A stretch of 64,000 nucleotides of DNA from a virus: the IMG/VR virus record IMGVR_UViG_3300035113_000078, positions 1-64,000 of that record; one strand, given 5' to 3'. Numbering within the stretch: position 1 is the stretch's first letter; every line of letters begins with the position of its first letter. The translations under genes were made by a program, and so were the position numbers. Shown in pieces: positions 20,888 to 43,422 of the stretch. The notes below the pieces were generated by a model. It ran no database searches. It had not been told where the DNA came from and saw only the letters and a program-made list of their open reading frames with translations.

Positions 20888-21619
20888 ATGCACGTTGCCG
20901 ATGATCGGCAAACCGACCGAGACCTCGAGCCCCAGCCGCACGAGGCGCGCGCTGGTGCCGGGTGGTCGAAGTGGACGGATCGGGCGCCCCCGACGCCAGC
21001 AACACGGCGACCCGGCAGGCCGAAGCGCGTCGACGCACCCATCGTGCCGTGGGACGTCATCGACAAGCTGCTCGTGCACGGCGAGGTCGTCATCGATCCG
21101 CGCAACGGGCAAGAGGCCCTGCGCTTTCCATCGCTTGCCGTCCTGGCCAAGCGCTACGGCATCAGCCGGACGCTGATCTGGAAGTACACCAGCCGCGCGA
21201 AATGCTTCGAGCGGCGCAAGGAGGCGCGCGCCAAGATCCTCGCGCGCACAGACGCCAAGGTGATCGAGAAGGTGTCCAACGCGCGGGCGGCCTCCACTTC
21301 AGACGTGGCCGCGATTGTGGACACGTTCATTTCCGGGTTTCGCAAGGCGCTTGATGCGGGCAAGGTGCGCCTCGATTCGGCCGCGGACCTCGACCGGCTG
21401 GTTCGGCTTCGCGAATTGATCAACGGCAACGCGGATTCCCGGAGCGAGCTCGCCGGCGGGCTTACGCTCGAGGCGCTCCAGGGCCGGCACCGCCAGCTGC
21501 GCAGCCAGCTCGACGGGATGTCGCCCGAGCTCGCCGGCACGACCGCGCAGGTCACCGGCGAAGGCGACCCACCGGGTGACCTGGGTCGAGAGGAGCGGGG
21601 CGATGACCCGACCCGGTGA
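20888..21619 (+). CDS. Probable terminase small subunit
   Basis: The 243-residue protein has a disordered Pro/Arg-rich N-terminal part. A helix-turn-helix follows at about residues 75-100 (SLAVLAKRYGISRTLIWKYTSR), then a long helical segment and an acidic tail. A DNA-binding protein of this size just ahead of an HNH nuclease and the large terminase is the standard position of the small terminase, which recognises phage DNA for packaging. The call rests on HTH plus position. GTG 20879 is an alternative start. It overlaps the HNH gene by 17 bases. Confidence 0.65.
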   Translation: MHVADDRQTDRDLEPQPHEARAGAGWSKWTDRAPPTPATRRPGRPKRVDAPIVPWDVIDKLLVHGEVVIDPRNGQEALRFPSLAVLAKRYGISRTLIWKYTSRAKCFERRKEARAKILARTDAKVIEKVSNARAASTSDVAAIVDTFISGFRKALDAGKVRLDSAADLDRLVRLRELINGNADSRSELAGGLTLEALQGRHRQLRSQLDGMSPELAGTTAQVTGEGDPPGDLGREERGDDPTR

Positions 21620-22799
21620 TCCCGCTCCGGACTGCCGCTTCTCTAAAAAAGTGGCAGTCCGCGTGGAACGGGCGGCGCCAAGTCGCGGATTTAGCACCGC
21701 GGCCGACGCGCCCGGGCCGAACGCGGACTGCCGCTTTGCCGGCGCGTGCGCGGCGCGGGGGCCGGTCCCGGCGTCCAGTGCAGCGGACCCTGACACGCCG
21801 CAGAAGCACACATGCGGCGGGTTCACAGGCGAGACCAGCGCCGAAGCACATGCGCGTTCGCACACTGCTGTGTGTAGTTCACCGCCGAGCGGTGCCGGCG
21901 TCGGAGCGGCGGCCGCGCGCTCGGCGGCGACGGCGCGCGCACGTTCGCTCGACGGCGCGGGGGCGGGCGCCCTTCGCCTGGCGGCGAACGACGCGATGTG
22001 CGCAAGCACGGCGCCACCGGCGCGCAGCTCGACGGACGTCCTCAGCGTCGCCGGGCCCCCCGGGGTCGATCCCCCGTTTTCGGCGACCGCGCCGGGCGTG
22101 CCCACTGCCGTCTCGCACGGGGCTATCCCCGAGAAAGTGGACGTTCGGGCGCAAGTACGCGCGATCGCGAAACCCAGAATTTGGAGCTGGCTCCGCAAAG
22201 AAGTGGACTCCCCGTGGGGGCGATCGCTCGACGACGACGGTCACTGGATCGAGCACCGTCGCTGCCGGTCCTGCGGATGCATCCAGAAGCGGCCGCACTT
22301 CACCAGAGGCTATTGCAAGCCCTGCTATTATCGCTCGCCGTTCGGACGCGCTCGCAAATACGAGCACTACGTTGAGCACCGCAAGCGCCTGCGCGCGAAC
22401 GACCGCGACGGACAATGGCTACGCGTGATGGCGGCCGCCGTGCGTAAGCGCCAGGTTGATCGCGACGCCGGTCTCGTGCCGGACTACTCCGTCATTGCAT
22501 ATTGCGTGACGTGCAAGCTGTTCAATGGCCGATGCGCGTTCTGTAACTCACCGGACGATCTAACCATCGACCACCACTATCCCGCCGCCGCAGGCTCTCC
22601 CATCGAGCCCGGGAACGCTGTCCTTCTCTGTCGCGCATGCAACGCGTCGAAGGGTAGGCGTCTGCCCGAGGAGTTCTACGGCCCAGAGCAGCTCGCGCAG
22701 ATCGAGCGAACGCTTCAGCTCGCCGTCGAGCTTACTCCCTTGATGGAGAAGCTCTTGCCACGACTCGATCTTCGACGGATTCGCGGAAGACCCGCATGA
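21603..22799 (+). CDS. HNH endonuclease of the packaging module
   Basis: The 398-residue protein carries a canonical HNH centre near 315-360: [19 protein letters not shown], then [14 protein letters not shown] with paired CxxC zinc ligands and Asp-His. An additional CRSCG...YCKPCY zinc pair lies near 220-245. The first 180 residues are low-complexity Ala/Pro/Ser-rich. HNH nucleases encoded beside terminases assist cos-type DNA cutting in several phages, which fits here. The long N-terminal low-complexity part is unusual, and the true start may lie further in. Confidence 0.8.
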
Positions 22800-22816
22800 C
22801 GGCGACCAGAGATCCA

Positions 22817-23434
22817 TCAGCACGGCAGGTCGCGCACGTCGCGAGCGACGTCCTCGTCACTGAGCTCAGCGTAGATTCGCGTCGTGTTGGCGTCCTTGTG
22901 GCGAGCGATCCGCTGCGTGAAGTCGAGATCCCGCTTGGCACGCTGCACGTTGGTGAGCGCCGTGTGCCGGAGCATGTGGAAGTTGAACCGCCGATCGAAC
23001 CCAGCCCGCTGCTGCCACTTGTGGAACAGGTAGCGGAGCGTCCTGGTCGCGATCCGGGTACCGCGGCGGGAGATGAACAGCGGGGCGGTGGGCTCAAGAC
23101 TCTCGCCGCGGGCGCGCTTCCACTCGATGAACTTGGTGAGCTTGTACCAGGCGCCATCGGGCAGGAAGACGTCTTGGTTCGCAGGAGCATCGGTCGAGCG
23201 CTTGAACGTCCGCAGGGTGAACTGACGCCGGACCTTGCCGTCGTCACGAAGAACGTCGCCGACGTCGAGCGCCGCGAGCTCGTGCTCCCGCATGGCGGTG
23301 CCCAGGGCGAGCGAAAAGATCACGTGGTCGCGGAAGCCGTCCCGATGTTCCCCGGAGGTCTTCAGGAGCTTGGCTTGGTCGACGCGGGTGAGGGTGCGGG
23401 GCGGGCGACGGACGGCGGCGGCGTAGCTGGTCAT
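22817..23434 (-). CDS. Short tyrosine recombinase (phage integrase)
   Basis: The 205-residue protein contains the whole catalytic core of a tyrosine recombinase. It has the first Arg in [11 protein letters not shown], the beta-hairpin Lys in [16 protein letters not shown] (His-x2-Arg), the second His in ARHKDANTT, and the nucleophile Tyr in RIYAEL. It lacks the N-terminal core-binding and arm-binding domains of typical integrases (over 300 residues). It is on the minus strand between HNH and large terminase genes, 17 bp from the HNH stop. It shows the phage is, or was, able to integrate. The attachment site is not identified. Confidence 0.8.
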
Positions 23435-23488
23435 CAGGAACCTCCGACGACATCACATGCGTCTTCGTCGGCGGAAAGCAAGTCGAAC

Positions 23489-24934
23489 GTGCGTGGTCCG
23501 CTCCTGGTCGGCAAGCGCACGGAGGAGGATCTGCTCGACTGGCTCGGGACGGAGGTGGGCTTCTTGACTGGTCTCGGCCATTACAATGAGGAAGCCCTGG
23601 TGCTGGAGCCGTTCCAGATCGCCTTTCTTGAGTCGAAGAGCCGGTTCCGCTGGGTCGAGAAAGCTCGGCAAGTCGGATTCTCGTTTCTGTTTGCAGCCGA
23701 GGCCGTCGCGCGTTGCCATCTGCGCGATGTCCACACCACAGTGATGGTATCCTACAATTTAGAAGACGCCAAAGAAAAGATCAATTACAGTCGTCAGCTT
23801 GCGGAAGAATTGCCACTCGCCTATCGCAAAAAGCTTGTGACCGACTCCAAAACTGAACTTGGATTCCTCTCCAATAGCGCGTCGAAGCGCGTATCGCGCA
23901 TCATCTCGAATCCCTCGAAGGCGCCACGCGGGAAGAAGGGTGACTTGATTTTGGATGAGCTCGCCCACTACGCGAACGACCAGGAGGTCTACAAGGGTTC
24001 GACGGCGCTCATCCTGCGCTCGCGCGGTCAGCTCACCGGCTGCTCGTCGCCACTCGGGCGTCGTGGCGTGTTCTGGCAGGTTGCACGCCAGGAGCTGCGC
24101 AAGTACCCGACGTACTGGCGACAGCAGGTTCCCTGGTGGCTGTGCCGGTTCTTCTGCACCGATGTCCTCCGTGCGGTGAAGCAAGCGCCGCTGATGCCGA
24201 CCGAAGAGCGTGTCCGTACATTCGGCAACAAGGACATTCAAGATCAGCTCGACGCCCTCGCACTCGAAGATTTTCAACAGGAGTTTGAACTCGCCTTTTC
24301 GGATGAATCGTACTCGTTCTACCCGTATGAATTGATCCTGCCTTGCACGAGCGACGACCTCGTGCTCGCCGACGACTTCGCGACCTTTGGCGACGTCACC
24401 GGTCGGCTCGTGGCCGGGTTCGATGTCGGCCGTAAGCGCGATCTGTCCGAGCTGTCGATCTTCGAAGACGTCGGCGGCAAGCAGGTGTGCCGGCTCCTGC
24501 GCAGCTACGACCGCGTGCCGTTCGCCGACCAGGAGGCCGACCTGCGCCGCATGCTCACGATGCTGCCGATCGGCCGGCTGTCGATCGATCAAAACGGCAT
24601 TGGGATGCACCTGGCGGAGAACCTCGGCCGGGACTTCGGACAGGTCGTGCCCGAGACATTCTCGAACGAGTCCAAGGAGATCTGGGCGACCGACTTCAAA
24701 ATCCTCCTGCAGCGCAAGGACATCGTGCTGCCCAAGGATCGCCAGCTGGTCGCGCAGATCCACAGCATCAAGCGACGGCTCACACCGACCGGCAAGCCGT
24801 CGTTCGAGCCGGAGCGCGAAGAGATCGGCAAGGGCCACGCTGACCGCTTCTGGTCGGTGGCGCTCGCCTGCCAGAAGGAGCGCGGGCCGCTGCCCGGTGC
24901 CGTTCCTGAAGTCCACGTCAGGGTGATCGGATAA
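23489..24934 (+). CDS. Terminase large subunit (Mu gp28-like)
   Basis: The 481-residue protein has the ATPase signature in variant form, KARQVGFSF near residue 55, where the Walker A lysine is Phe; Walker B is LILDELAHY near 152. A C-terminal nuclease domain follows ([14 protein letters not shown] with the first catalytic Asp near 312, [22 protein letters not shown]). Variant Walker A motifs of the RQxG type occur in Mu-like terminases. It pumps DNA into the head. GTG 23489 with GGAAAG ten bases before it is preferred. The frame stays open far upstream, but only across the integrase's opposite strand. Confidence 0.85.
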
Positions 24935-25795: not shown

Positions 25796-26099
25796 TGGCG
25801 TCACCTCTTGCGGCGCACCACCGAGCGCTCGGCGACCTCGTCGAGCTGCGGCGCGTCACGAACCTGTCCGCGCTGGACGAGGCGGCGTGCCGCCGGGTCG
25901 AACCAGGGTCCGATGCCCCGCACTGGGATCGCCTGTACGCGTCGGCGATCTGCGAGCGCACGCATCCGCGCGTCGAGCGCGTCGCAGCGCTGTGCCCCGG
26001 CTGCGAGCTCTCGTGGGAGCGGTGGCAGGTGGCCCAGGGGTCGCCGCGGCGGCTGGCGGATCGGCGCGTGTCGTTGCCGCGGTTCGGAGGAGACGGACC

Positions 26100-26103
<4 letters not shown>
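25795..26103 (+). CDS. Small hypothetical CxxC protein
   Basis: The 102-residue protein is Arg-rich and helical with one CPGC motif near residue 70 and two more isolated Cys. It is not recognised. Its start and stop each overlap the neighbouring genes by a few bases, which supports it as a real gene in the portal operon. Confidence 0.6.
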
Positions 26104-28075
<1,972 letters not shown>

Positions 28076-28079
<4 letters not shown>

Positions 28080-29200
28080 GAGAGCGTCCCCATCATCTGC
28101 GACCGTACGTCGACACCGTTCGCGTCGTGCTCGTCTACCGCGACTTCACCGGCATCGGCGTGTCGCACGTCGGGCTTGGCGTCAGCGCGCAGTACACCGC
28201 GAAGACGCTCCGCCACCACGGCATCTGGGCCGAGGTGTGGCCAGCACAGAGCGCCCAGAAGCTGCGCGAGCGACTGCGGCTCGTCAATACGGAAGCGGAT
28301 CAGCGCGGCGAGATCCGGCCCACCCACGTCATCCTCGCGGCGCCGTGGATTCCGACCCACGAGGTCGAGCTCACCGCCGCTGAGTTTCCCGAGGTGAGCT
28401 GGGTGGTCGTCAGCCACTCGAGCGTCGGGTTCTTGGCGGCGGATCCGCACGCGATCCGCCTGCTGCGGCAGACGGCAGACCTCCAGCTGTCGACCCACAA
28501 CGTGTTCGTCGGTGGGAACTCGCCGAAGTTCACGGCCTGGGCGACGGAGGCGTGGGGCGTCAACGCGGTCTGCTTGCCAAACCTCTACAACCTCGACGAA
28601 ACATTCCCGCGTCACGACCGGCGCTGGCAGGGGGGTGCCTTGCGCCTTGGGCTGTTCGGCGCGAACCGACCGCTCAAGAACTTCCTCACTGGCGCCGCGG
28701 CCGCCGTTGTCTTGGCGCGCAGCCTCCACGTGCCCGTCGAACTGCTCCTGTCAACCGGACGGAATGAGGGCAGCGACGGGCGCGCGCTCGAGGAGATGAC
28801 CGAGAACATCGCCAACCTCAAGGTCACGAGAACCGGCTGGTTGCCCTGGGCCAGCTTTCGGAGCCTCCTGCGCACCGTCGATCTGGTGTTCCAGGTCAGC
28901 TACACCGAGACCTTCAACGTCGTCACGGCGGACGCGATCGCGGAAGGCGTCCCGGTCGTGGCGAGCGACGCGATCGACTGGGTGCCGCATTGGTGGCAAG
29001 CGCGCGCCGACGAGCCGCTCGATGCGGTTCGCGTCGCTGAGCGTCTGCTGCGCGACCCGGACGCGCCCCGCCACGGGCGTCAGGCGCTCCAGGCGTACGT
29101 CGATCGCGGCGTGGTCGCCTGGTGGCGCTTCCTCTGCCCGCAGCTCGCGACCATGGCGCGCGCCGAACCGCCGGCGCGCGCCACATCGGACCCCATATGA
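28076..29200 (+). CDS. GT-B fold glycosyltransferase in the head operon
   Basis: The 374-residue protein reads as a GT4-like glycosyltransferase: an N-terminal Rossmann-type half, then LGLFGANRPLKNFLTGAAAAV (donor-domain start), VTRTGWLPWASFRSLL, and VSYTETFNVVTADAIAEGVPVVAS, which carries the typical E-x7-E like region around the donor sugar. It has ATGA overlaps with portal and MuF-like genes, so it belongs to the operon. Possible targets are the virion (decorating capsid or tail), phage DNA bases, or host surface sugars; the sequence does not decide. A glycosyltransferase between portal and minor head genes is unusual. Confidence 0.8.
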
Positions 29201-30252
29201 ACGACGGCCTCTACCGCGCGGCGATCGACGCGGCAGACGAGCTCCTTTGCGACGTCTATCGGCTCGATGTCGCCAAGGCGCTCGATCCGCTCGACCCGCG
29301 CGATTTCCTCGTCATCGTGGGACGGCTGGCCCGGGCGCTCACCAGCGTGTCGCGCGAGGCGGAGGCGGGCGCGTTGCGCAAGGCGCTCGCGACGCTCGAT
29401 GTCGACTGGCCCCGCCTGTCGGTCCACGCGCGGGACGAGGTCCTCCGCGCAGCGCGGCACGCAGTCGCCGGCGTCGCGGACCAGGTCCTGCCGCGGGTGG
29501 AGCAGGTGTTCGAGCTCGAGGCCAAGAACGTCGTCGATCGATCACGGCGTGCGACCGTGCGGCAGTTCGGGCTCCGGATCGCCGCCGACACCACGAGGAC
29601 CGATACGCGGATCGCTGCGTTCGTGCGCAAGAGCGAGGCGAACTTCATCCGGGACGAGTACGGCCGTCGCCGCGACGAGCTCGGCCTGCGCGCGCGAGAT
29701 ATCGTGGCGGCCGGGCTCGAGCAGGGGCTCGGCCGGGACGACATTGTCGCGGACCTGTCGGCGCAGCTCGCACCGGTCGTGAGCCGTGGCAAGCCGTACT
29801 GGGACGTCGTCGCGACGAGCTTCGCCAACCGAGGCCGAACCTACACGCAGCTGGCCGCGTTCGACGAGGCCGACGTCGACCACTTTCGTTTCGAAGCGGT
29901 GCTGGACCAGGTCACCAGCGAGGTGTGCCGGTTCATGCATGGCCGCGAGTTCAGCGTAGAGCGGGCAAGGCAGCGCTTCGACGAGGTCGAGCAGGCCGAC
30001 GACGCGGAGGCAGTGACCAACCTGCAGCCATGGATGCGCGTCGGCGCCGACGATGCCGGGAACCAGGTCTTGTACTACGAGCGGGCGGGGCGGCGCCGCA
30101 TGGTCGCCCGTGTCGACGAGTCGTCGGTGGGGAGCTCGGACCGCGTCGGTCGCTACTCTCGCGCGCTGTCGACCGACGAACTTGAGGCCGCGGGCGTGAC
30201 CGTCCCGCCGCTGCACGGTCGCTGTCGCTCAACCATCGTGGTGGTGGACTAG
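29197..30252 (+). CDS. MuF/SPP1 gp7-like minor head protein
   Basis: The 351-residue protein is helical at the N terminus. It ends with the diagnostic MuF segment: LDQVTSEVCRFMHGREFSVERA, then VTVPPLHGRCRSTIVVVD, with the conserved Cys and His pairs. Family members associate with the portal inside the head and some are ejected with the DNA. No C-terminal toxin domain is appended; the protein ends right after the MuF motif. It overlaps the glycosyltransferase stop. Confidence 0.85.
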   Translation: MNDGLYRAAIDAADELLCDVYRLDVAKALDPLDPRDFLVIVGRLARALTSVSREAEAGALRKALATLDVDWPRLSVHARDEVLRAARHAVAGVADQVLPRVEQVFELEAKNVVDRSRRATVRQFGLRIAADTTRTDTRIAAFVRKSEANFIRDEYGRRRDELGLRARDIVAAGLEQGLGRDDIVADLSAQLAPVVSRGKPYWDVVATSFANRGRTYTQLAAFDEADVDHFRFEAVLDQVTSEVCRFMHGREFSVERARQRFDEVEQADDAEAVTNLQPWMRVGADDAGNQVLYYERAGRRRMVARVDESSVGSSDRVGRYSRALSTDELEAAGVTVPPLHGRCRSTIVVVD

Positions 30253-30254
30253 CC

Positions 30255-30548
30255 ATGCCGCGCGACTTCCTCTCGCTCATCGAGAGCGAGCAGCTCGAGC
30301 AAGCCCTGCTCGGCATCGAGCACGCGGTCACGCGCAGCTTCGAGGCCGATGGCACGCGGGTGACCGGGGCTGAGGTCCGGCACCGATTCGCGATCTGCGA
30401 GCGGCTCGTCCGCCAGCTACGCGGTGACCTGCGCTGGGGCCTCGTTCGGGTGATCGACCACCTGCCGCATTACCTCCGCTACGAGCTCGATGGCCAGGCC
30501 TGGGAGCCCGATCGGCGGACCTGCTGGATGCCCGAGGACGGATCGTAA
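30255..30548 (+). CDS. Small hypothetical protein
   Basis: The 97-residue helical protein starts two bases after the MuF-like stop. It is mixed charged (SEQLEQALLGIEHAVTRSFE, ICERLVRQLRGDL) and not recognised. Tight spacing on both sides supports it as an operon gene. Confidence 0.6.
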   Translation: MPRDFLSLIESEQLEQALLGIEHAVTRSFEADGTRVTGAEVRHRFAICERLVRQLRGDLRWGLVRVIDHLPHYLRYELDGQAWEPDRRTCWMPEDGS

Positions 30549-30564
30549 CGACAAGGAGCTGTCT

Positions 30565-31299
30565 ATGACGAAGACAACGAAGCTGGACACCATCGCCACG
30601 CGGCTCGAAGAGGTCGTGGGGCTCTTGCGGGGCGATGCAAGACCGACCGCGAAGCGGATGCCGCTGAACGAGTTCATGAGCTTCGCGCTCGCCGAGATCC
30701 AGAAGGCTGCCAAGGACAAGCCCGAGGTCGCCAAGCGCCGGCTCGCGACGCTGAAGCGCAACGTGGATGAGGTGATTGCCGCGATCGCCAAGCTCGCCGC
30801 CGAGGATACTGAGAGCGAGGACATCGACGTCGAGGTCACGACCGCGTTCGCGCCGACCAAGGCCGACGGCGACACGCCGATGGAGGATCTGTCGACGGCG
30901 AGCGAGCAGAGCTCCACGGACGTGCCGCTGGACCGGGTGTCGTCGGCGAGCGGTGACTCGGCCTTCGCGGAGAACCTCAACCAGGTCGCCAAGGCTCTCG
31001 AGAAACTCAAGGCCGATCTTGGAGTATCGGACGACACCAAGACGCGGGCGCGGGCGACCAAGAATGCTTCTGAGGGCAACGAGCGCGGACGCAGCGGAGA
31101 CGCACGCCGTGGTGGCGATCGCGGCGACGGCGAAGATCGCGACTGGGGCGATGGTCGTGAGACCGCCGGTGATCGCGACGGCGATGGCTGGCCGATGGAT
31201 CTCGCCACCGACGCGTTTCTGAAGGGCGCCGACAAGGATGACGCCACGCCGCTGTGGGGGTACGACCCCGACGAGGTCGCATCTCCGAAGGCCAGGTGA
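30565..31299 (+). CDS. Hypothetical acidic helical protein
   Basis: The 244-residue protein has a basic helical N-terminal third (MTKTTKLDTIATRLEEVVGLLRG; AKRRLATLKRNVDEVIAAIAKLA), a Ser/Thr/Asp-rich middle, and a highly charged Gly/Asp/Arg region near 180-215. This resembles an internal or scaffold-type head protein but is not recognised. AAGGAG lies four to nine bases before ATG 30565, favouring it over upstream GTG/ATG options. Confidence 0.6.
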   Translation: MTKTTKLDTIATRLEEVVGLLRGDARPTAKRMPLNEFMSFALAEIQKAAKDKPEVAKRRLATLKRNVDEVIAAIAKLAAEDTESEDIDVEVTTAFAPTKADGDTPMEDLSTASEQSSTDVPLDRVSSASGDSAFAENLNQVAKALEKLKADLGVSDDTKTRARATKNASEGNERGRSGDARRGGDRGDGEDRDWGDGRETAGDRDGDGWPMDLATDAFLKGADKDDATPLWGYDPDEVASPKAR

Positions 31300-31302
31300 C
31301 CT

Positions 31303-33318
31303 GTGAGAACGGCAACGCCGAGTTCACCCGCGGACGGGGCGCTCCGACGCGCAGCCGCGTTCCTGCGTGTCGTGCAGCCGGACCCCGAGGCGGCGGAGTT
31401 GCCGCGAACGGCGCGGCCGTCGCGATCGGACGGCGGCCCGATTGGGCGCGACGACGGGCGGCAGATGCAGCTGCCGAACGTTGCGCTGGATGCGCCGGTC
31501 GCCGGACCGGGACAGGCAGTCACCGCCGAGCCATCGAGGGGCGAGGGAGTAGAAGCCGTCGAGAAGACGATCTGGGGCTCGCCGGCGGGGAAGAAGCACC
31601 TCGCACCGCGGCTCGTGAAGCTCATCCCGCCGCACAAGACCTACGTCGAGCCGTTCGCCGGCAGCGGGGCGGTGTTCTTCGCCAAGTCGCCATCCGACAA
31701 GGAGATCCTCGGCGACGCCGATCCGGAGATCGCCTTCGCGTACAAGGCGCTCTCGACGCTGAGCGATGGCGACCTTGCCGCGCTCAAGAAGAAGGACTGG
31801 ACCGGACGCCGGACGCTGTACCGCGCAATGCAGGAGGCGAAGCCGAAGAGCAAGGTCGACAAGCTGTACCGCTTCCTCTACCTGTCGCACTTCGCGTACG
31901 GGAAGCTTCGCGGCAAGAGCTACAACCCCAACGCCGAGGGCATCGGCGCGCGCACGATCGATCGAATCGAGAAGTATCGGGACCGGCTGCGCAACGTGAC
32001 CGTTCGCTCCGCGCACTACGCCGACGTGGTGAAGGAGTTCGACGGCAAGGACACCTTCTTCTTCTTGGACCCGCCGTACCCCGGGCACAACGTCGAGGTC
32101 GGCGAGGACCGCTTCGACGAGGTCGAGTTTCGCAAGATCCTGGACGGCATCAAAGGCAAGTTCCTCGTCACCTACGGCACCCGCGGCAAGCTCGACACCA
32201 GCGGCTTCCAGGTCCGGACCGTCCGAACGCGGCGCACGATCTCCTCGATGCGCGGCGTTGGCGGCCCCAAGACGCTGCCACAGCTGCTGATCGCGAACTA
32301 CGCCATCACCAAGAAGTCCCTCGGACCGTACGAGCTGGACGAGGTCGAGGCGTCGTTCGAACTGCCGGCCGACGTCGCAGCGGACCTCGACCTAGCCTGC
32401 GTCCTCGCGAAGGCACTGGCGAGCGAGGTCGGTGAGCCATTGATCGTCGCGCTCGCGAATGCGCTGGACCGTTTCGACGGTGCCAGCGAGGAACGAGCCA
32501 TGGCGCTGGCGAGAAAACTGCTGCCGCTGAGCGCGCGGATCGCGCCAGCGATCGAGACGGCGATCCCGGATGTCGTGGCCGCCCTCGAGGCCGCGACACC
32601 AGCGATCGGCGAGCTGGCGAAGGTACAATGGAGCCGGGCGTACATCAACGACTTGCCGGATGACGCGTTCCTCTACATTGAGCCGGGCGGCGCACGAGAC
32701 GACGACGGGAAGACGGCTCCCCGAAGCCTGCGTCACTTCCCGTACCGCAACCAAACAGGCGATCTCGACGTGCCGCATCTGCAGAACGCGATCGACCGCA
32801 TCCCGCAGAGCACGGTGGAGGGGCTCACAGCCGACGCGAAGGCCAAGCTGCAGGATCGAGCTCGGCGGCTCATCGAGGAGGCTCAGGCCGCCGTCGCGAA
32901 GGCGGGCGACAGCAACGCTGCTCAGGCGCCCTTGGCCACCATGTTGGTTTCGGTCCTCGAGAAGCGCATCCCTCTGCTCAAGACTGGCGAGGAGCGTTAC
33001 GTGCTCGGCGTGGTGCTCGAGCCGGAGACGGTCGACGCCCAAGACGACATCTACTCTGCGGCGGAGGTTCGCGATGCAGCCCACCGCTTCATGGAGCAGC
33101 ACCAGAACATCGGGCTGATGCACCGCGGACTCGTCAACGGCCGCGTGAAGATCTTAGAGTCGTACCTGGCTCCGACGTCGTTCCCGCTTGACGGAGCACA
33201 AGTTCGCAAGGGCACGTGGCTGCTTGCCGTGCGCATCCTCGACGACGAGCTATGGGCACAGATCAAGAGCGGTGAGCTGACCGGGCTCAGCATCGGTGGC
33301 AGCGCGCGTCGGGATTAG
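31303..33318 (+). CDS. DNA adenine methylase fused to XkdF-like prohead protease
   Basis: The 671-residue protein holds two enzymes. Residues about 88-330 are a D12-class N6-adenine methylase: EKTIWGSPAGKK, VEPFAGSGAVFF near 114, and the catalytic DPPYPGH near 256. Residues about 440-545 match the helper region often ahead of prohead proteases (RAYINDLPDDAFLYI, LRHFPYRNQTGDLDVPHLQNAI). Residues 547-671 are an XkdF-like protease (EKRIPLLKTGEERYVLGVVLEPE, IGLMHRGL with the likely catalytic His, GELTGLSIGG with the likely Ser). It would methylate DNA and mature the head. The first 85 residues are disordered. The fusion is uninterrupted in one frame. Confidence 0.85.
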   Translation: MRTATPSSPADGALRRAAAFLRVVQPDPEAAELPRTARPSRSDGGPIGRDDGRQMQLPNVALDAPVAGPGQAVTAEPSRGEGVEAVEKTIWGSPAGKKHLAPRLVKLIPPHKTYVEPFAGSGAVFFAKSPSDKEILGDADPEIAFAYKALSTLSDGDLAALKKKDWTGRRTLYRAMQEAKPKSKVDKLYRFLYLSHFAYGKLRGKSYNPNAEGIGARTIDRIEKYRDRLRNVTVRSAHYADVVKEFDGKDTFFFLDPPYPGHNVEVGEDRFDEVEFRKILDGIKGKFLVTYGTRGKLDTSGFQVRTVRTRRTISSMRGVGGPKTLPQLLIANYAITKKSLGPYELDEVEASFELPADVAADLDLACVLAKALASEVGEPLIVALANALDRFDGASEERAMALARKLLPLSARIAPAIETAIPDVVAALEAATPAIGELAKVQWSRAYINDLPDDAFLYIEPGGARDDDGKTAPRSLRHFPYRNQTGDLDVPHLQNAIDRIPQSTVEGLTADAKAKLQDRARRLIEEAQAAVAKAGDSNAAQAPLATMLVSVLEKRIPLLKTGEERYVLGVVLEPETVDAQDDIYSAAEVRDAAHRFMEQHQNIGLMHRGLVNGRVKILESYLAPTSFPLDGAQVRKGTWLLAVRILDDELWAQIKSGELTGLSIGGSARRD

Positions 33319-33319
33319 A

Positions 33320-33362
33320 CCGCGTAGGGCCGGGCGCCCCGGCCGGGGATCTGCCTACGCGG
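33320..33362 (+). terminator. Terminator-like hairpin after the protease gene
   Basis: CCGCGTAGG at 33320-33328 pairs exactly with CCTACGCGG at 33354-33362, with a further GCC/GGC-rich fold inside. It lies right after the stop at 33318. Only a weak T run follows. It most likely ends the portal-protease transcript. Confidence 0.55.
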
Positions 33363-33469
33363 ACTGTTGTGCTCCGACACGGGATCACCGAGCGGTCGTT
33401 ACGATAGATGATCGGCGCAGCGTCTATTCGTGATGCGACCTCTCCAGCGTTCGGAAAACAGCTGCACTT

Positions 33470-34312
33470 CTAGATCCAGTATGACGCGTTGAGGTTATCA
33501 AACGGTTGCGCAACCCTTCGCGATTGATAGAACGCGTTACAAACTTCCGCGAAGGCACGGTTACGGCTTCTGAGCTCGGCGACTTCCACCCGGCCTCGCT
33601 CCTGCAGCGTCACCAGGCGTGAGCGGTCCCGGATGTCGATCTCCTTCGCCTGAATCGTCCCCGTTAGCCGCAGTAGCCGTTCGTACTCATCCTTTTCGAT
33701 CGGCTGCTCATGCTCGATGCCATCGACGATGGTGACCCGGAAATAGAGGGTGGGCTCACCGGCCGCGGATTGTACCTTCCATCCTTCCGGGCTGGGTTCG
33801 GTCCGCACCGCGACGATGGACAGGCGGTGGCCGTCATGGATCATGACTCCGATCGACTTGTTCCAGTAGCGGATCTCAGAAATCGGACTAGTGTAGGAGT
33901 TGCTCTTGATGCTCCTCTCTTCCCAATACTTCTTTCCGGACTGAAGCAAGCGCTCCGCAAAGGCGTTGCGCTGCTCTTCGGAAAATCTGTCTCCTTCGGG
34001 AACAAGACATTCCGTTTCGTGGATCAGCCGGCTTGTATATCTCAAGAGATTATGGATCGCAAACGACAGTGTCTCGAAGTCCTCATTGGTAACGAGGGCC
34101 CACTTCTGGTACGGGGTGCCGCGGGAGGAGTTCTGGAGGAATGGCTCGTCCAAGGCCACGGTGAGATAGTGCTCCAAGGCGTAGTGGTAGTGGTTGATGA
34201 CGTCGACCTGCATCATGTAGACGGCGGCCGGCAACGGGACCACGGCGAGACCTTTGGCGTACCGGGTCAGGGCGTGGATGGCATCGTCGAAGATGAAGGC
34301 GAGGTTGAGCAT
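33470..34312 (-). CDS. Unknown cargo protein at the portal/head junction
   Basis: The 280-residue protein is not recognised. It begins MLNLAFIFDDAIHALTRYAKG and is mixed alpha/beta with many aromatic residues, no signal peptide and no membrane span. It is transcribed against the structural genes and is visibly less GC-rich than they are, so it is probably acquired cargo. ATG 34312 is preferred; the frame extends to 34531 but that part is Arg/Ser-rich and unlike a protein start. It sits between the end of the portal module and the head-module promoter. Confidence 0.6.
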   Translation of the reverse strand: MLNLAFIFDDAIHALTRYAKGLAVVPLPAAVYMMQVDVINHYHYALEHYLTVALDEPFLQNSSRGTPYQKWALVTNEDFETLSFAIHNLLRYTSRLIHETECLVPEGDRFSEEQRNAFAERLLQSGKKYWEERSIKSNSYTSPISEIRYWNKSIGVMIHDGHRLSIVAVRTEPSPEGWKVQSAAGEPTLYFRVTIVDGIEHEQPIEKDEYERLLRLTGTIQAKEIDIRDRSRLVTLQERGRVEVAELRSRNRAFAEVCNAFYQSRRVAQPFDNLNASYWI

Positions 34313-34562
34313 GGTGATGTCCGATCGTGGTTGAAGGTGAATTGGCGACGCTCGAGTGATCACTACGCGGCTCCTTTCCGCAATGCAACGGTTGCAAGCG
34401 CGTCCTCGTGATCGCGCTCGGCATCGAGGCGGTGACCGATCGTCGAGCTCGATGTCCTCGCTCCCGCCGCTTGGCCGCCGCGCGATCTGGCTGTGCCGAT
34501 TGACGCCGGCGACTACCGTGAAGGTGGTCAAAAGGTTACCTCGGATCCCGTCGAGGATCTGA

Positions 34563-35230
34563 ATGGTGTCCGCGTCGCAGCGACGACGCGAGGAGCCCGA
34601 CGATGACCACGACCACGACGATCGCTGTGCCGACGAGCTGCGCGGCGCTATGCACCCGTTGGCGGAACTGACCCAGCGTCTCGACGACGAGCTCGCCCAG
34701 GCCGGGAACGGCGCGGCGATCGACTACGGCACGCACGAGCAGCGCGTGGCCGATGCGCTCGTCGAGGTCGAGCGTGGGCTGCATGCCCAGGTTCTGTCGC
34801 GGCTCGACATCGACGTTCCGGTGATCCGGGTGTGGGGTGACGAGTATCGGGGATCGGCCGGTGCGAGAGCGACTACACACGCTCGCGGGGACGGTGCGTG
34901 TGATGGACGGTGTACCGGAAGACCGGGCGCAACGGCGACACGCTCGATCCGGCGAGCGTGCGCGCAGGCGTCGCCGCCGACGGCTGGCTGCCGCACACGG
35001 CGCGCGCGATGGCATACCTGCTCGCGCAAGGGACGTCGCTCGAAGCGGAGGCGACCGGGCGCGAGCTGGCGCGGCTACCGTACTCGCGGTCGAGCTTCGA
35101 GCGCGCCGGTCACGAGGTCGGGAGGCTGTACCGGCGGGCGCAGGCGCGGATCGAGGAAGTGCTGATCCAGGAGTACGCAAGACCCACAGGCGGCATGGCT
35201 CGGAACGGCTCCGACGAGGATTGGAGGCGT
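34563..35230 (+). pseudogene. ISKra4-family transposase remnant
   Basis: Three successive frames together read as the front part of an ISKra4-type transposase. First come LDIDVPVIRVWGDEYR (34563-34860), then LHTLAGTVRVMDGV (about 34865-34915), then YRKTGRNGDTLDPASVRAG, DGWLPHTARAMAYLLAQGTS and ELARLPYSRSSFERAGHEVG (34913-35165). At least two frameshifts separate them, and the C-terminal half of the transposase is absent. It is a dead, truncated insertion sequence. Its end lies about 50-100 bases before the head-module promoter. Terminal inverted repeats were not found. Confidence 0.75.
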
Positions 35231-35281
35231 AGTGCCGGATTATGCAATGAAGTAAATATATTAGAATCACACCCGACTCAC

Positions 35282-35310
35282 TTGACATCACTGTGGAAGT
35301 TCCATAGGAT
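35282..35310 (+). promoter_or_regulatory. Late promoter copy A (head module) with palindromic spacer
   Basis: TTGACA (35282-35287), exactly 17 bases, then TAGGAT (35305-35310). The spacer ends with TGGAA-G-TTCCA (35294-35304), a perfect inverted repeat placed between the two boxes where a bound protein would block or remodel RNA polymerase. The same layout and palindrome recur at 43485 and 56086. The predicted transcript starts near 35317 and runs into the hairpin leader of the head operon. Confidence 0.8.
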
Positions 35311-35324
35311 CAAAACACTCACAA

Positions 35325-35389
35325 GACCATAGGGGTCGTTGAAGTTCTTCAAGCCCCGGCACGGACCAAGGTCCTTGCCGGGGCTTTTT
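35325..35389 (+). terminator. Leader element copy 2: switch-like hairpins and terminator
   Basis: GACC (35325-35328) can pair with GGTC (35334-35337). TTGAA (35339-35343) pairs with TTCAA (35348-35352). AGCCCCGGCA (35352-35361) pairs with TGCCGGGGCT (35376-35385), with an inner GGACC-AA-GGTCC, followed by TTTTT. The last is a strong intrinsic terminator lying between promoter A and ATG 35405, so the head operon would be silent unless termination is overcome. The small hairpin overlaps the terminator's base, so the two cannot fully form together. Confidence 0.8.
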
Positions 35390-35404
35390 GCGTTCCGAGG
35401 AGCC

Positions 35405-36652
35405 ATGGCAGACGACGGCAGCACCACGAAGCAGGCAGCCACCGAGGGCGAGTCGGGGGTGCACCGTCTGCGCGACATCGTGGTGGAGGAGGTGTCGCTG
35501 GTGGACCGGGCAGCCAACAAGCGCCGATTCCTTCTTGTGAAAAGGAGCAGCCAGATGGCGGACGATGGCAAGCCAAAGAGCGGTGGCACCTCGCAAGAGG
35601 GCCGAACGGGTGCGACGGCCGGCGCGGGCGCCAGGAAACCGCGGCTCAAGCCCGACGAGAACGTCGACAAGGCGCGTCCACGCGTCATGCGTGCTGCGTC
35701 CGATGACGATGACGAGGAGGAGGAGGAGACCGATGCCAAGAGGGCTCGCGGGCGTGATTCCTCGGAAGATGACGACGAGGAAGACGAGGAGGAGGCTTCG
35801 AAGGCCACGTCGGAGGATGACGAGGAGGGAGAAGAGGACGACGAGGACGACGAGGAAGACGACGAAAAAAAGACCTCGACCAAGACCAGCAAGACGAGGG
35901 CGCGTGCGAAGGCCGACGCGCGTTCGAACGACGGTGCCCGCGTGGGCACTGGCAAGGGTCGCGACGGCAAGAGCGCCCAGAAGGCCGACGACGAGCTCGT
36001 GCTGCCGGGCGCGGTGAAGAACGCCGTACTCCGCGTACTCGCGCAGGCGCTCGAGCGGCTGATGGCGGTCACCAACCAGGTCAAGGAGGCCGGCGAGCCG
36101 GACGACGGGACCGATGCCAGCGTGCCCGATGACGTGACCAGCGAGCTCGAGGACATCGGGGAGCTGCTCGAGGACGTTGGGGAACAGCTCGCCGATCCAG
36201 CGGAGAAGGCCGCCGCCAAAAGGCCGGCGGCGGCCAAGGCGCGCGCCGCGAAGGCCGGTGTCGCCAAGGCAGGCCGGCGCATGGCGAAGGATCGGCTCGA
36301 GCGGTTTCAGAAAGCGCTCGAGGCGTTGTCGGCGATCCTGAAGGAGCTCGTCGCGGCGAAAGAGGCGCCGGGCGCAATCGCCGGGGCCAGGCCGAGCCCG
36401 CAGGTCAAGCGCGACGTCGTGCCTGAGATGCGCGAGCTCGCCGCCGGCGTGAGCGAGCTGACGCGCGTCGTGAAGCGGCAGGAACAGGAGATCGTCCGCC
36501 TGCGCAAGACGCCCGGCACATCCAACGCGATTCCCATCGAGGGCGGCAGTCGCCGCCGTGAGGTTCTGGACGTCTCCTGGCCGCTCGACATGAACCGACC
36601 CATCTCGCGAGACAGCGTCGCCAAGGCGGTCTCGTTCTACGACGAGGAATAG
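35405..36652 (+). CDS. Probable scaffold-like head protein
   Basis: The 415-residue protein opens with [30 protein letters not shown] (read as segments; the [10 protein letters not shown] type box is common at the end of XkdF-like proteases and the start of phage scaffold proteins). An extremely acidic Asp/Glu stretch follows (about 95-165), then Lys/Ala-rich helices and a coiled-coil end ([25 protein letters not shown]). Position just before the capsid gene supports a scaffolding role. GAGGAG precedes ATG 35405, immediately after the leader terminator. Confidence 0.65.
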
Positions 36653-36660
36653 GAGACCCC

Positions 36661-37620
36661 ATGGGTGGACTCACCGCAGGGCTGATGGACAATCGCACGA
36701 TTCTCGAGAAGGCGGACCTCGCGCTCGCCGATCTCACCGCCGGCGGCGGTCTCTTGCAGCCGGCGCAGGCGCAGAAGTTCATGAGGATCTTGATCAACGA
36801 GGCCGTGATCCTCAAGCAGGCGACGGTTGTCCCGATGCGCAGCCCCAAGCAGTTGATCGAGAAGATCCGGTTCGCCAACCGGATTCTGCGGTCGGGCTCG
36901 GAGGCGACCGCGCTTGCCAAGGACGACCGCGCAGTGCCCAACCTCGGTAAGGTCGAGCTCGACGCCCAGCTGTTCAAGGCCGAGGTGCGCCTGAACAACG
37001 AGGTTCTCGAGGACTCGATCGAGCGCGGCCAGCTGCGGCAGACGATCATGCAGCTGATGGCCGAAGCCATCGCGCGCGATGTCGACGAAGTCGTGATCCA
37101 GGGCGAGCGGGGGAATCCAGATCCGTTCCTCGCCAAGCTCGACGGCATCCTCAAGCAGGCGCAGTCGAACATCGTCGACGCCCAGGGTCAGACGACGAAC
37201 AAGGGCGTGTTCCGCGACATGTTGAAGACCATGCCGCACGCCTTCGTACGCAACAAGAAGCAGCTGCGGTTTTTCACGTCGGTCAACTCGGAGCTCGACT
37301 ACAAGGACTCGCTGTCCGAGCGCGCGACCGCGGTTGGTGATAAGTACGTCGAGCAGGACGTGCCGGCGACGTATTCCGGCGTGCCGGTGATCGACGTGCC
37401 GATGTTCCCCGAGGCGCAGGGCGCCGGGCAGAACCAGACGTCGATCATCTTGACCGACCCCAAGAACATCAACGTCGGCATCTGGCGCAACATCCGCGTC
37501 GAGGTCGACAAGATCGTCACCGACGGTGTGCTCGTCATCGTCGCGACGCTGCGGTTCGACGTGAAGTACGCCGAAGAGTCGGCCGTCGTGAAGGCGATCA
37601 ACGTCCGGGTAGGTGCGTGA
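36661..37620 (+). CDS. Major capsid protein (HK97 fold)
   Basis: The 319-residue protein has the order expected for the HK97 capsid family: an N-terminal arm, then [16 protein letters not shown] and [36 protein letters not shown] (E-loop and spine helix). An A-domain follows, with [23 protein letters not shown] and a C-terminal [30 protein letters not shown], the typical P-domain ending of such capsids. It forms the head shell. It overlaps the next small gene by ATGA. Confidence 0.85.
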
Positions 37621-42183: not shown

Positions 42184-43422
42184 ATGAGTGGCAGGCCACA
42201 TCTGACAGTAGTGGTGGGAGCGGGAGGCTCTCTCGAAGTCGGCGTTCCGTCCGTCGCCGCGCTCACCGAAAAGGTTTGGGATGCGCTCGACCGCATCCAG
42301 CTCCGTGTTGCGGTGCCGCGCAGCGAACCGGCGGCTCGAGTGCTGCGGAGGTTGCTCGATGAGCACTTCAAGCCTGCCAACTTCGAGCACGTGCTGCATG
42401 CACTCGAGGCTCTTGACAGCATGAGGACCAGCTCATCGCCAGGAACCGTGCCGCGCTTTCGGATCGTGGAAGCCGCACTTGCGGGCGGGATTCGCATCGA
42501 CCTGGCTGGGATCATAGCCGACGATCTATGGGTGGATGCGGCGGCGCGCCAGCTGTTCGAGGTCTTGCACGATGAGATCGTAGCAGGGACAAACAGTGCG
42601 GCGGCCTCGCCAAGGTGGCCGGCGTTCGCTGCGCTGTGGCAGCAGCTGGAATCTGCTTTTGACCTACACGTGGTGACCCTGAACTACGACCAGTTGGTCG
42701 AGGGTGCGCTCGGCTGGTCTGCGCACGAGCAAGGGTTCGCGCCGGTCACGGGTGAGAGCGTTCAGCGGTTTGATGCCTACCAAAGGCCACCGCGATTGAT
42801 CCACTTGCATGGCAACGTCTCGTTTGGATACCGCGGCGGAAGCGCAGACGTGAACCGCTTTCGCTTCGAGGACGGTTGGCACGACCTGTACATGCACCCA
42901 TCGCCCGCCACCGCCCGAGCGAGCTGGGGCCGCCGAAGTCAGCCGAGTAGCCAAGCTGGTCGCCACACAATCATAGGGCCTTTGATCACGGGCATGGAGA
43001 AGACCTCCAAGTTGCTGATCGAACCGTACGCGACCTACCAGCGTCATGCCGGCAACCTAGTCGCTGATCATCCGCGCGTGCTCGTGGTGGGGTACGGCTT
43101 TGGGGACCCACACATCACGACGCTGATCAACAAGATCGGACGCATCCACGGCCCCAACCGCCGTGTGGCCTTGGTCGACTTCACGCCGGGCGAGGACGGT
43201 GACGATGAATGGCGTGGGATGACCGTGGTGTGGGGATCCGAGCGCCTCGAGCTGCAGCGTTCGGTCTATTTGCTCGCCGCAGAGGAGTCCCCGCTCGACG
43301 TGTTCAGCTCTCGAGAAGTGTGGACGTCGCGCGATGGTCGTTTTCGCGTTCATCTCTGTGGCTTTACCCGCGTTGCCACGCATCACGCCGCCAATCTCAT
43401 TGCATTTCTCTCCCAGCCCTGA
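42184..43422 (+). CDS. SIR2-like domain protein, probable NADase-type defence protein
   Basis: The 412-residue protein carries SIR2-fold motifs in order: VVVGAGGSLEVG near residue 10 (NAD-binding glycines), TLNYDQLVE near 165 (Asn-Tyr-Asp), LIHLHGNVS near 206 (catalytic His), and VLVVGYGFGDPH near 300. Proteins of this type in phages and defence islands often cleave NAD and abort infection by competitors. It stands alone between the decayed gp10 copy and the tail-module promoter, so it fits a prophage-carried defence gene. No Shine-Dalgarno site is visible before the ATG; an AT-rich stretch (42165-42183) suggests a near-leaderless start. Confidence 0.78.
   Translation: MSGRPHLTVVVGAGGSLEVGVPSVAALTEKVWDALDRIQLRVAVPRSEPAARVLRRLLDEHFKPANFEHVLHALEALDSMRTSSSPGTVPRFRIVEAALAGGIRIDLAGIIADDLWVDAAARQLFEVLHDEIVAGTNSAAASPRWPAFAALWQQLESAFDLHVVTLNYDQLVEGALGWSAHEQGFAPVTGESVQRFDAYQRPPRLIHLHGNVSFGYRGGSADVNRFRFEDGWHDLYMHPSPATARASWGRRSQPSSQAGRHTIIGPLITGMEKTSKLLIEPYATYQRHAGNLVADHPRVLVVGYGFGDPHITTLINKIGRIHGPNRRVALVDFTPGEDGDDEWRGMTVVWGSERLELQRSVYLLAAEESPLDVFSSREVWTSRDGRFRVHLCGFTRVATHHAANLIAFLSQP

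Follow-up and report, generated by a model that had tools for sequence, protein, structure and literature searches.

Why should the protease that matures a phage head be joined, in one polypeptide, to a DNA adenine methylase? The question is raised by a gene of the virus record IMGVR_UViG_3300035113_000078 of IMG/VR, of which we have analysed positions 1 to 64,000, i.e. the stretch of 64,000 nucleotides that is referred to here as "the window". The gene is a single open frame of 671 aa with a GTG start, which leads, from the N-terminus to the C-terminus, through a Dam-like (D12) adenine methylase, a DUF6582-like domain and an XkdF (S78_2) head-maturation protease (Table 1).

The sequence-only reading of this locus had described a frame of 671 codons with a D12 methylase and an XkdF-like protease, and the open frame, the Pfam matches and the motifs agree with that description: MethyltransfD12 (PF02086) is matched at residues 96-262 with 64 bits (E 2.4e-17, cut-off 22), and Peptidase_S78_2 (XkdF, PF14550) at residues 561-669 with 94 bits (E 8.5e-27, cut-off 24). 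The methylase motifs occur in the order I...IV, i.e. FAGSG followed by DPPY, while D578, H607 and S663 of the protease are invariant in the alignments and the conserved active-site histidine and serine are present; the motifs of both enzymes are intact. The N-terminal enzyme is predicted to be an N6-adenine DNA methyltransferase of the D12 class, and the C-terminal domain a prohead protease of the XkdF/S78_2 type, with predicted cleavage activity. The "helper region" of the same reading most plausibly corresponds to a DUF6582-like domain: residues ~441-528 match the MID profile of the family (our own HMM), and the equivalent segment of the relative L057 is DUF6582 (PF20223) by Pfam; in the window protein, DUF6582 stays below the Pfam threshold used.

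Table 1. Features of the fusion gene and of the neighbouring head genes, in coordinates of the window.
Feature	Position	Strand	Basis
Fusion gene, D12 methylase - DUF6582-like - XkdF protease	31303..33318	+	Open frame, Pfam, orthologous fusions
N-terminal extension, residues 20-85, predicted disordered	31360..31557	+	AlphaFold pLDDT <50; poorly conserved
D12 N6-adenine methylase domain (predicted), residues 86-341	31558..32325	+	Pfam, own HMM, Foldseek
Methylase motif I FAGSG, residues 118-122	31654-31668	+	
Methylase motif IV DPPY, residues 256-259	32068-32079	+	
Helical linker, residues ~356-440	32368..32622	+	AlphaFold helices; absent from many relatives
MID domain, DUF6582-like, residues ~441-528, optional in the family	32623..32886	+	Own HMM; PF20223 in relative L057
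XkdF/Peptidase_S78_2 head-maturation protease (predicted), residues 558-671	32974..33315	+	Pfam, alignments, PDB fold match
Candidate processing site E87-K88-T89, methylase start	31561..31569	+	Inferred from linker motif
Candidate processing site L552-E553-K554-R555, before protease	32956..32967	+	Inferred from linker motif
Terminase large subunit (true start later than listed frame)	22796..24934	+	Pfam Terminase_6N/6C
Portal protein	25887..28079	+	PF04860, phrog_12
MuF-like minor head protein	29122..30252	+	phrog_2841, phrog_115; weak PF04233
orf269, weakly similar to C-terminal part of head-maturation protease	30490..31299	+	phrog_3017 positions 224-390, E 4.5e-5
orf437, scaffold-like protein	35339..36652	+	phrog_13975, phrog_3017 N-terminus; precedes MCP in most fusion loci
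Major capsid protein (MCP), N-arm with LEKAD	36661..37620	+	PF05065, phrog_1623

The fusion is the only S78_2 protease of the 64.7-kb virus record, and a search for an S78 protease across the same record has found none. An internal start that would yield the protease alone has been considered and rejected: no Shine-Dalgarno-like sequence accompanies any in-frame ATG, GTG or TTG codon near the protease, and the aligned relatives do not share the candidate Met547. Motif avoidance, sought in the window, has given no useful target-site signal; GATC stands at 1.09 of expected and is not depleted.

The fusion has been modelled by AlphaFold with 40 rows; the methylase is confident at about residues 87-341 and the protease is of moderate confidence, with disorder at the N-terminus (20-85) and in the linker at 535-553. 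By Foldseek, the methylase model matches E. coli Dam (E 2.7e-12, TMt 0.76), i.e. it has a Dam-like fold, and further matches are the MCBE1-like 7m6b, DpnM and T4 Dam. When modelled alone, the protease reaches a pLDDT of 80, and T4 gp21, the capsid assembly protease, stands at the top of 350,542 PDB chains, a match that is weak, since its E value is 0.034. Two BFVD proteins from uncultured phages, A0A6J5PIT0 and A0A6J5M6S8 ("Zeta toxin domain containing protein" and "ChaB"), have also matched the fusion model, and possibly represent further XkdF cargo.

A search for the domain pair, which the sequence-only reading had proposed, has been conducted by scans of IMG/VR and GTDB genomes, where at least 115 distinct methylase-XkdF fusion proteins have been found (42 on genome contigs, 73 on virus contigs), many of them from Myxococcota, with isolate genomes of Myxococcus and Corallococcus among the sources; the collections are dereplicated and partly fragmentary and the scans took the best 80 loci each, so that all such counts are lower bounds and not prevalences. 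The order of the domains is fixed, the methylase being N-terminal to the protease in 115 of the 115 fusions listed, and the tail after the protease has a median of 17 residues. Seventy of these proteins are built as methylase-protease and 26 as two methylases-protease, while others reach at least three methylases and include the MID domain; in six close IMG/VR relatives both domains occupy one frame, three of the six with two tandem methylases. XkdF occurs in 31 of 195 genomes from the phylum of Myxococcus xanthus AM003, and a methylase is also present on most of the XkdF frames with fetched loci from that phylum; judging from the relatives, the host of the window virus is probably a myxobacterium. 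No record of the annotated phage collection spans both parts of the window protein, and that collection has yielded no isolated phage with the fusion.

The position of the gene is as constant as its architecture: in the window it sits between the portal/MuF genes and the gene of the major capsid protein, and in the relatives a portal or MuF gene lies upstream in 72 of 78 loci with enough flank and the MCP gene downstream in 71 of 77, while a scaffold-like protein of the orf437 type, with an N-terminal VSLVDRAAN motif, follows the fusion in 67 of 77 loci. As it lies between portal/MuF and MCP in most loci, the fusion therefore occupies the place of the head-maturation protease; orf437 would, from its position and composition, be the scaffold. 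In the relative L078, a second D12 methylase is located within the orf437-type protein, directly behind a VSVVDQAAN motif, and in L148 the methylase, the protease and the scaffold-like protein form one frame of 771 aa; both cases fit cargo that is attached to proteins expected inside the prohead.

Several other features of these loci are mentioned for completeness. The window has ~2 kb (33320-35338) between the fusion and the scaffold-like gene, with minus-strand frames at 33470-34531 and 34536-35291 that are without a Pfam match, whereas in most relatives the two genes adjoin. A glycosyltransferase family 1/"GT4-conflict" protein is encoded between portal and MuF (28076-29200, +) and is kept in the close relatives L002, L003, L005, L028, L037, L108 and L109; an HNH endonuclease gene (21576-22799, +) adjoins the terminase gene; and a gene downstream of the head genes (42184-43422, +) has a SIR2_2-like domain (PF13289, E 1e-10) and is possibly a defence or superinfection-exclusion gene. 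In L031, L118, L122, L123, L127 and other Myxococcus loci, two consecutive MCP-profile frames follow the fusion, and these may be paralogous capsid genes or the parts of one gene that is split. The methylase-bearing scaffold-like protein of L078 (7199-9031) continues with long ADEEKAK repeats. Long methylase proteins also occur in head-gene context in L081 (738-5744), L082 (1228-6222) and L175 (2132-7078; Archaeoglobales MAG), as well as in the Elusimicrobia loci L159-L170; no XkdF domain is detectable in them, and they perhaps use other carrier domains.

The methylase is one of several enzymes that the protease carries. Against the bias of the methylase-based search, a methylase-blind sample has been obtained by scans with the protease alone (alignments A3 and A4), and in this sample the protease is again C-terminal, preceded by up to ~1,630 residues; 83 of its 102 distinct complete frames have an N-terminal extension of at least 250 aa, and 45 have a methylase. 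Among 54 representatives that were chosen for N-terminal extensions of at least 250 aa, Pfam and PHROGs have identified the D12 methylase in 19, an ATP-dependent DNA ligase in 13, a TGT-like domain (phrog_887) in 5, the inorganic pyrophosphatase InPase in 4, a 2H/2'-5' RNA ligase in 3, a uracil-DNA glycosylase (UDG) in 2, other SAM methyltransferases in 2 and a C5-cytosine methylase in 1. Within the methylase-selected relatives, ligases are present in L048, L053, L071, L113 and L168, and L040 has a Tad3 domain (type I Thoeris inhibitor), above the Pfam cut-off, in the same chain. Many XkdF proteases are without cargo (L020-L026, L283-type), and the cargo is therefore dispensable for head maturation. 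On a tree of 110 protease domains, which has only 111 columns and leaves many forks open, the methylase label takes ~20 parsimony changes, at least 5 of them forced by well-supported branches, which implies many gains or losses of the cargo. In another XkdF fusion (L255, 4126-9354), a LAGLIDADG-type intein lies beside the DNA ligase domain.

The linkers between the domains offer a candidate cleavage motif, [LVIFM][EDA]K[ATSRV], which is observed 71 times in interdomain linkers against 7.5 in shuffles and, with redundancy removed, 30 times in 40 linkers against 4.06 expected, a count that 0 of 2000 shuffles reached. The enrichment is only suggestive, since the motif coincides with Lys/Ala-rich sequence and since conserved domain edges, which the shuffles do not take into account, overlap with the linker ends. 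In the N-arm of the MCP representatives, a close variant of the motif reaches 13.2 per 1000 residues, as compared with 2.1 in the rest, the window MCP carrying it as LEKAD; the motif also occurs at the C-terminus of the scaffold (VDKAVSFHD), at a rate (10.6) little higher than in the rest of that protein (7.5). We regard the motif as a lead rather than a result.

The reading that we favour, and to which we give somewhat better than even credence, is that the fusion is a self-processing polyprotein of head cargo, which would bring DNA-protecting enzymes into the prohead and from which the freed methylase would be ejected with the DNA. The fusion and its conservation, the intact motifs, the purifying selection described below, the position among the head genes and the exchangeability of the DNA-protecting cargo have been shown; from these we infer packaging through entry into the prohead, self-cleavage, retention in the mature head, ejection and protection, as follows. 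The XkdF domain would be the prohead protease of the phage and, because such a protease must enter the prohead during assembly, it would carry into the head whatever is attached at its N-terminus, i.e. the methylase or, in the relatives, ligases, modification and repair enzymes or an anti-defence domain. After assembly, the protease would cut the linkers, with sites of the form [hydrophobic]-[E/D/A]-K-[A/T/S/R/V] as the probable targets, and would also trim the capsid and scaffold proteins; the methylase, freed by cleavage within the head and retained there, would exit with the DNA and methylate the incoming genome ahead of host restriction or other DNA-targeting defences. Against this reading, head proteases are in many cases degraded or lost from the head, a fate that the cargo could share. 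More than 100 related viruses and prophages have the fusion, some of them with repair or anti-defence enzymes as well, and this points to a protease by which protective enzymes are brought into the virion.

The main rival, which we consider improbable though worth serious weight, is that the DNA is modified late, while still in the producing cell: the methylase would be fused to the protease for co-expression or placement, would act on the progeny DNA before or during packaging, and would then be clipped off and not carried onward. Both enzymes are indeed located in the late head operon, virion DNA that is modified in this way would likewise resist restriction, and stand-alone D12 methylases are common in phages, as the annotated phage collection shows; late modification, however, needs no fusion, and it leaves unexplained both the ligase, UDG, pyrophosphatase, 2H and Tad3 domains on the same protease and the methylase inside a scaffold-like protein. 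Of the options named by the sequence-only reading (release by the protease, co-packaging, or action on phage DNA at packaging), co-packaging is favoured by the variety of the DNA-protecting cargo, by the methylase on the scaffold-like protein and by the candidate cleavage motif of the linkers.

Catalysis might instead be secondary, the methylase fold serving the prohead by binding DNA or by filling the core. In P1, the internal proteins have a part in morphogenesis as well as in anti-restriction (PMC12810830), and tandem methylase copies would add to the mass of the core; yet both catalytic motifs are kept in 143 of the 152 methylase domains of the fusions listed, both domains are under purifying selection (the median pairwise dN/dS being 0.22 in the methylase and 0.15 in the protease, from ~360 pairs that are not independent), and unrelated enzymes replace the methylase as cargo, so that we hold this structural role to be very unlikely. 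Less probable still is that two adjacent genes have fused neutrally and have no functional link, the fusion being retained by chance and its product cleaved by the protease. The sequence-only reading had named separate genes in relatives, with no conservation of the junction, as an outcome that would speak against a genuine fusion. The relatives keep the domains fused in a fixed order, with the exception of L070, in which the methylase and the protease are separate nearby genes; the interdomain linker is poorly conserved in sequence, whereas the presence of both domains and their order are conserved. L070 and the many proteases without cargo would agree with a neutral origin; the retention of the fused state across at least 115 proteins and the recurrence on the protease tree of a cargo pattern that is mostly DNA modification and repair speak against it. 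An artefact, i.e. a missed stop, a frameshift or a chimeric assembly, is of negligible probability and is ruled out, together with chance, since the frame is open in the window and in the relatives, with no stop or frameshift between the domains, and since the fusion is kept in the six close relatives and, in the same order and in one frame, in at least 115 distinct proteins from independent contigs, Myxococcus and Corallococcus isolates included.

Virion-borne anti-defence is known from few systems (P1 Dar, the T4 internal proteins, N4 vRNAP), in which separate cargo proteins are targeted to the head. In T4, the internal proteins IPI and Alt enter the head, undergo processing and are injected, and the Dam-like methylase of the haloarchaeal virus phiCh1, which is encoded by a separate gene and methylates GATC, may likewise be packaged. 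Packaging and co-injection of the T4 internal proteins are also stated in a paper on the Dar proteins of P1 (DarA, DarB and Hdf), i.e. anti-restriction proteins that reside in the head and are co-ejected with the DNA, DarA being cut by the prohead protease (PMC12810830). The protease of the T4 gp21 system resembles the window protease in its fold (weakly), but the T4 cargo consists of separate proteins that are not fused to the protease. The Dar proteins are likewise products of separate genes, DarB being an M.EcoKI-like methylase of ~2,000 aa with an SNF2-type helicase, whereas the D12 methylase of the window is covalently joined to the protease itself and is without a helicase; the proposed logic of the fusion would thus be that of P1 Dar in a different architecture.

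The fusion also resembles the polyvalent proteins (Iyer et al. 2017, PMC5512222), which combine several unrelated enzymatic domains, including adenine methylase and 2H, in one protein of a mobile element, are found in late/packaging gene neighbourhoods and have been proposed to act on host entry. The window fusion, like them, has at least two unrelated enzymatic domains, to which its relatives add ligase, UDG and methyltransferases, and the fusion loci lie in a late/packaging neighbourhood. Polyvalent hub domains include the zincin MPTase, ArdC, SNF2-methylase-LPD36, MuF and others (PMC5512222); MPTase, ArdC and SNF2-methylase-LPD36 are absent from the Pfam matches of the window protein and from the 54-member tally. 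The common module of the fusions is, unlike in polyvalent proteins, a C-terminal prohead protease, and their methylase is of the D12 type; a text search of PMC5512222 finds no S78/XkdF or prohead-protease fusion in its body, "prohead protease" appearing in the reference list only. The fusion would work like the polyvalent and the P1 Dar proteins, and by the features tested it is a member of neither.

Two apparent precedents have been rejected. Mox of the Myxococcus phage Mx8 is a phage-encoded adenine methylase (PMC6070905), but it is a stand-alone gene of 258 aa outside the head operon. In PAK_P1-like phages, an XkdF match carries the label "DNA methyltransferase"; PAK_P1 gp3 is a protease of 156 aa without a methylase, and its label has therefore been carried over by mistake. 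phrog_1530, which bears the same label, aligns with the window protein at its protease end only. The gp3 gene (L020, 2983-3453) illustrates how this Pakpunavirus-type mislabel of XkdF spreads via PHROG-based annotation.

The sequence-only reading had known of no described function for such a fusion, and we have found none either: in PHROGs v4, the 450-position profile phrog_13242 is of "unknown function"; a jumbo-phage review mentions XkdF only as a head-processing peptidase; and the open-access literature, i.e. outside subscription papers, has yielded no paper on XkdF fusions or on DUF6582. Methylase and protease both fall within the phrog_13242 profile (a Myxococcus fusion aligns over positions 1-449 at 1015 bits), and the architecture has therefore already been clustered in PHROGs; the greater length of the window protein includes an N-terminal extension, a helical linker and the DUF6582-like domain.

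As a generalisation that we put forward tentatively, and hold to be possible rather than probable, XkdF may be a general module of delivery and self-excision, by which exchangeable modifying, repair and anti-defence enzymes would be carried in, cut out at a shared motif and ejected with the genome. If this is true, the domains that stand N-terminal to a C-terminal head protease would be a readable list of the enzymes that a phage brings along, many proteins of uncultured phages that are annotated as "prohead protease" or "DNA methyltransferase" would become predicted entry effectors, and the Myxococcus prophages with such fusions would be a laboratory system in which protease-borne delivery can be tested.
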